A stretch of DNA of 64,000 nucleotides from Catalinimonas alkaloidigena (GTDB taxonomy: Bacteria; Bacteroidota; Bacteroidia; Cytophagales; Flexibacteraceae): positions 595,348 to 659,347 of the forward strand of contig NZ_FNFO01000003.1 in NCBI RefSeq assembly GCF_900100765.1, in the 5' to 3' direction. Below the pieces are notes generated by a model that ran no database searches, was not told where the DNA came from, and saw only the letters and a list, made by a program, of their open reading frames with translations. Below, piece by piece: positions 10,217 through 12,351 of this stretch (the first letter of the stretch is position 1; each line of letters opens with the position of its first letter). A program made the position numbers and the translations under genes.

Positions 10217-10603
<387 letters not shown>

Positions 10604-10630
10604 CGTTACGGCGCTTTGCCATACGCAAAC

Positions 10631-10667
10631 GGCGTCCCGGAATCATCTTCCGGGACGCCGTCTTTTT
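10631..10667 (+). terminator. Rho-independent terminator of the ferredoxin gene
   Basis: A perfect 12-bp stem, GGCGTCCCGGAA (10631-10642) with TTCCGGGACGCC (10648-10659), 5-nt loop, followed by TCTTTTT. It lies 28 bp after the ferredoxin stop codon. Confidence 0.93.
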
Positions 10668-10727: not shown

Positions 10728-10949
10728 TTAGAAATCTGTCTCGATCTTTTCTTTTAGCTTCTCATCCTGCTCTTCGGGAGGCGTATCGGTGATGTTGCCG
10801 AACTCATCCACAAAGGCTAACATTTCGGGCAGGGTTCCACCCGACGAGTTTTCCTGGCGCTCTTTTTTGCGCTGCATTTTCTCTTCCTTTTTCTTTTGTC
10901 TCTTTTTCTCTTTTTGTCTTTTGATGAAGCTATTTTGAGATCTGCTCAT
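10728..10949 (-). CDS. Small charged conserved-type protein, function unknown
   Basis: A 73-residue protein. The first 34 residues are almost entirely Lys/Arg/Glu/Gln (MSRSQNSFIKRQKEKKRQ onwards), predicted as a single charged helix. The C-terminal half carries SGGTLPEMLAFVDEFGNITD followed by an acidic PPEEQDE tail. The FVDEFGNITDTPP segment looks like a small protein I have seen beside cold-shock genes in Bacteroidota, but no CspA-fold domain is present here, so no function is assigned. Upstream on the minus strand is the gene-free 418-bp stretch with the candidate structured RNA. Confidence 0.7.
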   Translation of the reverse strand: MSRSQNSFIKRQKEKKRQKKKEEKMQRKKERQENSSGGTLPEMLAFVDEFGNITDTPPEEQDEKLKEKIETDF

Positions 10950-11050
10950 GTATCAGGGTTTATGTTTAAAAATGATAAAGCGTTTTCACCGCGGGCCCGC
11001 CTACGCTGCCCGGCTTGCTTACTGAAAACCACGGTCGGTCAGACCACTGC

Positions 11051-11216
11051 GGTTAGGAAATCGCCGGTGTCAGGTAGATTCCGCTCCAAAAGGGGAAAGA
11101 GATCGCAGGAAGAAGAGGGAATACAGCCTCGGCAAGGCTACGGATCTTCCCGAAAAGGATCTCAGCGGAGAAAACTGAAGGACACAGGCGTGTGTAGAGT
11201 TTCCTGTTCTATAACT
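11051..11216 (+). ncRNA. Candidate structured RNA: long nested hairpin, possibly 6S-like
   Basis: This lies in a 418-bp gene-free stretch (10,950-11,367). Helices nest in order: GGTT 11051-11054 with AACT 11213-11216; AGGAAA 11055-11060 with TTTCCT 11200-11205; CGCC 11062-11065 with GGCG 11187-11190 and GTGTC 11067-11071 with GACAC 11181-11185 (one G.A mismatch between them); TCCGCT 11080-11085 with AGCGGA 11164-11169; GAGATC 11099-11104 with GATCTC 11158-11163; GGGAA 11117-11121 with TTCCC 11147-11151; and a tip AGCCT/AGGCT at 11125-11139. The result is a rod with a 13-nt one-sided bulge. The possible G.U pairs (54.206, 51.216, 79.170) only work on the plus strand, and a plus-strand terminator lies downstream. 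Folding was by eye; identity is unknown. Confidence 0.45.
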
Positions 11217-11313
11217 GTAAATATACCATTTTAGTTTGGTTCTTTCTCCCGCTGTTCAGCCTGCCCCTTACGTTCGTACCGAAAGGAGCGCAACAAGGTG
11301 GCTTATACGCCAA

Positions 11314-11352
11314 TAGGCCACGATTCTGCGAACCGTGGCCTACCATTTTTTT
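11314..11352 (+). terminator. Plus-strand hairpin terminator downstream of the candidate RNA
   Basis: TAGGCCACG (11314-11322) pairs perfectly with CGTGGCCTA (11334-11342), followed by ACC... and T8 (11345-11352). There is no T run on the other side, so it does not suit hemB, which ends on the minus strand at 11368. No plus-strand gene ends here, which suggests a non-coding plus-strand transcript. Confidence 0.6.
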
Positions 11353-11367
11353 TGCAATTTCAAGTTA

Positions 11368-12351
11368 CTACCAGCGCCCTTCTTTCACGCCCTGAGCGTA
11401 CTCTTTGGCGAAGTAAGTCAGGATGATTTTAGCGCCGGCCCGTTTGATGCTCAGCAGCGATTCCAGCATAATCCGTTCGCCGTCGAGCCAGCCCTGGGCC
11501 GCAGCCGCTTTGGTCATGGCATATTCGCCACTGACGTTATAGGCCGCAATCGGAATGGGAAAGGCTTCGCTCAGGTCGCGGATGATGTCGAGGTAAAACA
11601 GCGCCGGTTTCACCATCAGCATGTCGGCTCCTTCTTCGAAGTCCAGCTCGGCCTCAAGCAGTGCTTCGCGCCGGTTGGCCGGATTCATCTGGTAGGTTTT
11701 CTTGTCGCCGAATTTCGGGGCCGAATCGAGGGCATCGCGAAAAGGATTGTAGAACGCCGACGCGTATTTGGCCGTGTACGACATGATCGATACGTCCGTG
11801 AAACCAGCGGCATCGAGCTGCTGCCGCATGTACCCGACGCGCCCGTCCATCATGTCCGACGGGCCCAGAATATCGGCACCGGCTTCGGCCTGCGCCACGG
11901 CCATGTTTCCGAGGATTTCGAGCGTCTCGTCGTTCAGGATTTTACCGTCCTGCACCAGTCCGTCGTGCCCGTCTGAACTGTATGGGTCCATGGCCACGTC
12001 GGTCATCACGCACACGTCCGGGTAGTGTTCCTTGATTTTACGCAGCGTGCTCAGGTACAGCCCTTCCGGATTGGTGCCTTCGGTAGCGCGTCGATCTTTC
12101 TTTGATTCCGGTAAACTCGGGAACACGTCGAACGTACGAATGCCCAATTCGGCACAGGCGCCGATCTCGTCCAGCAGGCGATCGGGGGAGTAGCGATACA
12201 TGCCGGGCATCGAATCGATCGCGACTGCCTGGTTATCGCCCTCGATCAGAAAGATCGGAAAAATCAGGTCGCGCACCGACAGGGTCGTTTCTTCGACCAG
12301 TTCGCGGATTACCGCCGACTTACGGTTGCGGCGCGGTCTTCGTATCATCAT
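11368..12351 (-). CDS. hemB: Delta-aminolevulinic acid dehydratase (porphobilinogen synthase)
   Basis: A 327-residue HemB, which condenses two 5-aminolevulinates to porphobilinogen in heme synthesis. The Schiff-base lysines are in YTAKYAS (K195) and MVKPA (K247-248). The metal site reads DVAMDPYSSDGHDG: residues 120, 122 and 130, where zinc-dependent enzymes have three Cys, are Ala, Asp and Asp. This marks the zinc-independent, Mg-stimulated class. The gene follows lgt on the same strand with a gap of about 18 bp, so the two are probably one transcript. Confidence 0.96.
   Translation of the reverse strand: MMIRRPRRNRKSAVIRELVEETTLSVRDLIFPIFLIEGDNQAVAIDSMPGMYRYSPDRLLDEIGACAELGIRTFDVFPSLPESKKDRRATEGTNPEGLYLSTLRKIKEHYPDVCVMTDVAMDPYSSDGHDGLVQDGKILNDETLEILGNMAVAQAEAGADILGPSDMMDGRVGYMRQQLDAAGFTDVSIMSYTAKYASAFYNPFRDALDSAPKFGDKKTYQMNPANRREALLEAELDFEEGADMLMVKPALFYLDIIRDLSEAFPIPIAAYNVSGEYAMTKAAAAQGWLDGERIMLESLLSIKRAGAKIILTYFAKEYAQGVKEGRW

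Follow-up and report, generated by a model that had tools for sequence, protein, structure and literature searches.

The rod-shaped fold at positions 11051-11216 of the window (the whole 64-kb stretch of DNA that was analysed) is tentatively assigned to the 5'-terminal folded domain of an mRNA leader of about 264 nt that would belong to p73, the small gene on the minus strand beside it. We give this assignment a little under an even chance of holding; it is the best-supported reading of the fold, and that of a free 6S-like RNA is not supported. A sigma-A-type promoter with its −7 box at 11225-11218 would initiate the transcript near 11213, the RNA would fold into the rod from about +9, and an A/U-rich stretch would sit ahead of the p73 start codon (Table 1). 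By analogy with the leaders of cold-shock genes, the most likely role of the rod would be to control how stable the p73 mRNA is or how it is translated, because relatives of p73 make up the N-terminal portion of cold-shock-domain proteins, and genes for a DEAD-box helicase or a csp-like protein adjoin some of them. Start site, transcription, function, temperature response and kinship with other rods are, as far as the window is concerned, all inferred.

Table 1. Positions of the features discussed, numbered from the first base of the window.
Feature	Positions	Strand	Description
p73	10728..10949	-	73-residue basic protein; homologous to the N-terminus of cold-shock-domain proteins, itself without that domain
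A/T-rich stretch	10950..10985	-	precedes the p73 start codon; GC 0.28 in 10940-10979
Inferred 5' leader of p73 mRNA	10950..11213	-	about 264 nt; from the −7 box and g77/g94 leaders of 210-350 nt
Rod	11055..11205	-	seven nested helices, 38 Watson-Crick pairs; interval studied 11051-11216
Helix 1	11055-11060/11200-11205		6 pairs
Helix 2	11062-11065/11187-11190		4 pairs
Helix 3	11067-11071/11181-11185		5 pairs
Helix 4	11080-11085/11164-11169		6 pairs
One-sided 13-nt bulge	11086..11098	-	separates two stacked helices
Helix 5	11099-11104/11158-11163		6 pairs
Helix 6	11108-11113/11145-11150		6 pairs
Helix 7	11125-11129/11135-11139		5 pairs
Candidate −7 box	11218..11225	-	TATATTTA; one mismatch to TANNTTTG, 6-base consensus; A/T-rich dip
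15-pair hairpin	11312..11344	-	−26.7 kcal/mol; 24 nt past the hemB stop; without T run
Terminator-like hairpin	11314..11353	+	12 pairs at 11314-11342, then T8 (11346-11353); −21.3 kcal/mol
hemB	11368..12351	-	PF00490, E 3.4e-139

The rod between p73 and hemB

The 418-bp gap between p73 and hemB (10950-11367) holds no supportable gene, as had been stated in the original prediction; it is crossed only by part of a 112-residue plus-strand open reading frame, for which a coding reading was rejected, as it has no Pfam match. The nesting, the 38 Watson-Crick pairs and the one-sided bulge of the original prediction were likewise recovered, with the helices opposite the bulge abutting at 11163/11164, while the number of helices had to be corrected from six to seven.

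How unusual such a fold is was assessed by a nested-rod score, which rates the highest-scoring series of perfect helices without branches, with dinucleotide shuffles as the null. The gap scores 38, compared with a mean of 31.4 (sd 3.4) for the shuffles, 14 of 400 of which reach at least 38, as do 17 of 305 equal-size tiles of the window. In terms of folding energy, the exact interval 11051-11216 gives z −2.72 on the minus strand (5 of 800 shuffles as good) and z −1.88 on the plus strand (34 of 800), values that are flattering because the interval was chosen by eye; for 284 tile folds, the mean z is −0.22 (sd 1.25) with a 5% quantile of −2.52. The plus strand, which had been favoured on account of G.U pairs, is thus the weaker of the two. 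Wider intervals fold more weakly than 11051-11216: z is −1.35 (14 of 200 shuffles) on the plus and −1.64 (13 of 200) on the minus strand for 11030-11216, and −0.87 (38 of 200) on the minus strand for 10950-11216. For 10950-11370, the interval for which a comparison with shuffles had originally been proposed, the plus strand gives z −1.75 (4 of 100). The rod is present, yet merely mildly unusual, and it exceeds chance weakly.

Chance folding is a serious, if doubtful, contender. It would mean that the helices are what a careful reading of 64 kb of mid-GC DNA turns up by eye, and that they are functionless even inside a leader. The shuffles and tiles that equal the rod score speak in its favour, as do an exact-interval z merely near the 5% quantile of the tiles and the lack of a rod homologue in the genomes searched. 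It is opposed by the minus-strand z, which 5 of 800 shuffles attain, and by the position of the rod and the spacing of its outer helix, both of which match the leader rods of another genus, g77, that are described below.

Putative leaders of p73 homologues in other genomes

Of 390 genomes from the order, which gene content suggests to be Cytophagales, 245 encode a homologue of p73 (E <= 1e-6), the source genome included. Among the matches listed, some homologues are short, with 61-95 residues, and others form the N-terminus of larger proteins (148-150 residues) with a C-terminus that looks like a cold-shock domain as judged by eye; p73 itself reached the cut-off of no Pfam or NCBIfam model. 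A DEAD-box helicase adjoins the p73 homologue in four of ten loci read (L082, L087, L088 and L090; names by eye), a csp-like gene does so in L090 and L082, and the gene upstream looks like methylglyoxal synthase in all three g77 loci read (L070, L071, L074). The neighbours of p73 in the window, namely hemB, a ferredoxin-like and a LuxC-like gene, include none with a link to cold shock, which counts against a cold-shock role. The ferredoxin-like gene (10253-10603) is directly followed by a strong terminator-like hairpin of 14 pairs at 10629-10661 on the plus strand. p73 is 77% identical to the short g77 homologues, although the HemB proteins of other genomes are at most 76% identical, and other genomes of its own family encode longer homologues only, with 42-46% identity, or none. 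This pattern suggests strong conservation or transfer.

The consensus TAnnTTTG is given as the sigma-A −7 box, located at −12 to −5, in PMC9723704, and the same consensus also appears in PMC7366714. A perfect TANNTTTG lies 130-360 nt upstream of the ATG in 26 of 37 p73-family loci; one further locus has a perfect box at 33 nt only, and ten are without a perfect box within 500 nt. The window has 26 perfect sites, both strands counted, which amounts to a background of about 0.1 for every 500 nt of one strand. The distant boxes therefore imply long leaders in p73 homologues, of 210-350 nt in g77 and g94 (a second genus with p73 homologues) and of some 120-350 nt overall. As the median 5' UTR measures 24 nt in Flavobacterium psychrophilum and 32 nt in Bacteroides thetaiotaomicron according to PMC9723704, leaders of this length make p73 a candidate for post-transcriptional control.

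Folding was carried out for the 26 leaders whose perfect box precedes the ATG by 130 nt or more; in loci with two boxes, the nearer one was taken in L103, L104 and L080, and otherwise the farther one, except for L083 and L071. The related species are not independent, and mean z values and ranks thus overstate the certainty with which the 26 leaders fold better than shuffles (mean z −1.74) and with which their first 25 nt engage in more long-range pairing than in shuffles (mean rank 0.24). Control pieces also beat shuffles, with a mean z of −0.99 for 78 adjacent pieces of equal length and of −0.45 for 26 pieces upstream of the promoter, and the folding excess of the leaders is therefore modest. 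Rfam gave no match at 20 p73-family loci.

A leader structure with covariation was obtained for g94, 13 of whose 16 genomes encode p73 at E <= 1e-15. A perfect box is located 276-359 nt upstream in ten of these 13, and the boxes of the other three end in A, like that of the window. For an alignment of 11 of the 13 leaders, with L121 and L124 left out as divergent, RNAalifold returned a nested rod of 16 pairs, six of them with changes on both sides. Its covariation score of 0.242, as opposed to 0.135 (sd 0.020) in shuffles, was reached by none of 500 shuffles and exceeds all six slid controls. The g94 p73 leader begins with a covariation-supported nested rod. Single-sequence folds begin at +7, the position in the alignment, in only two of 13 cases. 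The covariance model derived from this group (R3) later matched L121 (E 0.002) and gave no match to L124 at E <= 10. The rod, which lies at L092:1177-1276 and opens the leader in ten further g94 loci, had no Rfam match where tested.

For g77, nine of 14 loci were aligned; L070, L100 and L105 were left out for their divergent leaders, and L089 and L106 for want of a perfect box within 500 nt. A nested three-helix domain is common to these nine leaders (P1 ATCCTGA:TCAGGGT, P2 TCTGA:TCAGA, P3 GCCGC:GCGGC). Pairing is retained in 96.6% of cells, one pair shows changes on both sides, and the covariation is weak (score 0.108 versus 0.069, sd 0.012, with 11 of 500 shuffles as high). The corresponding model R1 found matches in nine of 50 genomes of the genus, solely at the nine training leaders. 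The outer helix in the alignment begins 20 nt after the start of the box, the same distance as in the window, and seven of 12 single-sequence folds begin at +9. The g77 and g94 loci gave no clear match to each other's model, the best cross match being L105 with E 0.94.

With regard to the window itself, just two boxes on the minus strand of the gap deviate from the consensus at no more than one position; of these, the one in A/T-rich DNA lies upstream of the rod. One-mismatch boxes are frequent (3.8 per kb and strand, the plus strand having five within the gap), which makes the window box weak evidence by itself; no clear −33 element was seen upstream of it. The outer helix of the rod, at 11205, is 20 nt past the first box base at 11225; among 400 shuffled versions of the window leader, 28 have a first helix in a similar place. 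It counts against the leader reading that the window leader, taken in full, is comparable to shuffles in its folding (z −0.92, and −0.87 for 10950-11216) and that the pairing of its 5' end is ordinary, being equalled or surpassed in 23 of 50 shuffles. Neither R1 nor R3 matches the window at E <= 10, and of three covariance models, i. e. R1, R3 and one built from the single window sequence, none ties the window rod to the other rods. The leader of the minus-strand 73-residue protein had originally been raised as the alternative to a free RNA. This part of the prediction is supported by the long leaders with sigma-A boxes in homologous loci and by the covarying 5' rod of g94; for the window, the leader is predicted from a one-mismatch box and from position. 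Just past the rod toward p73, a weak terminator-like hairpin occurs at 11031-11047 on the minus strand (three such sites in the region, 1.4 expected), which may represent an attenuator.

Comparison with known leaders

The nearest known mode of action that we infer for the p73 leader is that of the cspA-like leader described in PMC9450479, without claiming membership. As with the cspA-type leaders of E. coli, a long structured 5' leader would be combined with kinship to cold-shock proteins; the leader is predicted in the window and indicated in homologues by box position and structure. In contrast to the cspA type, p73 has no cold-shock domain (no Pfam match at cut-off, N-terminal kinship only), and its leader, known here from sequence, has no predicted temperature switch. 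In silico comparison of 10 and 37 °C, by a method not benchmarked on cspA, changed the openness of the start region in the window little, from 0.40 to 0.46, and gave no signal of a temperature switch.

A second parallel is provided by the structured 5' regions without Rfam match of F. psychrophilum (PMC9723704), which are also Bacteroidota leaders unassigned in Rfam; unlike the p73 leader, they rest on transcript data, and the p73 family is not among the examples from that paper that were considered. The rods of the g77 and g94 leaders resemble the window rod in being nested, in starting about 20 nt past the start of the −7 box and in their location upstream of p73, and differ from it in that the models built on them have no match in the window.

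It is conceivable, if rather unlikely, that these rods represent a class of fast-evolving mRNA leaders, in which gene, leader length and 5'-terminal rod are retained despite complete turnover of the RNA sequence. The p73 protein or a helicase would then perhaps recognise the long 5' helix and not a sequence, the leader would be autoregulatory, and p73, small and basic, would act as a cold-shock accessory, possibly an RNA-binding one. A limited search of the open-access literature for this family or for cold-shock gene leaders in the phylum returned no description of the p73 family. For a phylum about which little is known in this respect, the family offers a concrete example, open to testing, of RNA regulation that may be linked to cold.

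Other possible transcripts and DNA elements

An independent small RNA on the plus strand, extending from about 10970 to 11353 and possibly antisense to the p73 leader, appears improbable. It would end at the terminator-like hairpin and T8 and could start from TATGTTTA at 10961-10968 (+), a candidate box that has one mismatch; boxes of this quality are common, the plus-strand z is weaker than that of the minus strand, and no homologue was found in the genomes searched. The hairpin itself is very stable (z −4.69 on either strand). It had been described as an orphan plus-strand terminator, and indeed a hairpin with T8 exists; its minus-strand form is longer and stronger, with 15 pairs and −26.7 kcal/mol compared with −21.3 kcal/mol, so that the hairpin is no proof of a plus-strand transcript. 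It may terminate antisense transcripts before they enter hemB, or it may be where the hemB mRNA has its 3' end.

The original prediction had likened the rod to a free, 6S-like RNA on the plus strand. A hallmark of 6S RNA is its large open bubble at the centre, by which it imitates an open promoter. The rod shares with 6S RNA and 6S-Flavo its long, unbranched shape with a bulge, and no other 6S RNA has been located in this genome. It differs from both in that its bulge is one-sided, with no two-sided bubble, and in that it matches neither model. The models RF00013 (6S) and RF01685 (6S-Flavo), with which a search had originally been suggested, gave zero matches across the 7.1-Mb genome including the region at E <= 10, which leaves the 6S RNA of this lineage unplaced. 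Moreover, no Rfam family was found in the 64-kb window at gathering scores or in the region 10800-11450 at E <= 10. Homologues are lacking, too, in the relatives searched: the model built from the one rod sequence, a weak probe, returned from 49 sources the rod itself and one chance-level site in the window (E 1.7), and from 38 distant relatives a best E of 0.32. Together with the better minus-strand z, these results do not bear out the 6S-like reading, and it is highly improbable that the rod is the 6S RNA of this organism.

At the DNA level, 59 genomes (own included) were searched, and the whole region was found in its own genome only; other matches were short pieces of the chance type with E 0.008 to 1. 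A multi-copy element was rejected, since this search gave one copy. The least probable reading of all is that a small transposable hairpin element left the rod behind as a relic; the resemblance of the outer helix to a terminal inverted repeat could be cited in favour, and the single copy in the 7.1-Mb genome at E <= 1 speaks against it. The lineage is isolated among the genomes searched, judging from the closest HemB outside its own genome, which is 76% identical in sets that include no other genome of the genus. A scan of genome contigs with the first 101 residues of HemB as query gave two loci and no near relative.

A conserved RNA downstream of hemB was also considered and rejected: ten loci of one family (f19) share a gene-free gap, but its DNA is A/T-rich and unrelated (13 sequences, by eye). 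In these loci (L049, L051, L054, L055, L060, L061, L062, L063, L066 and L067), about 515-521 nt of gene-free A/T-rich DNA lie between hemB and the next gene. These stretches had no Rfam match, contain similar pieces near their end and could hold a long leader of the next gene.
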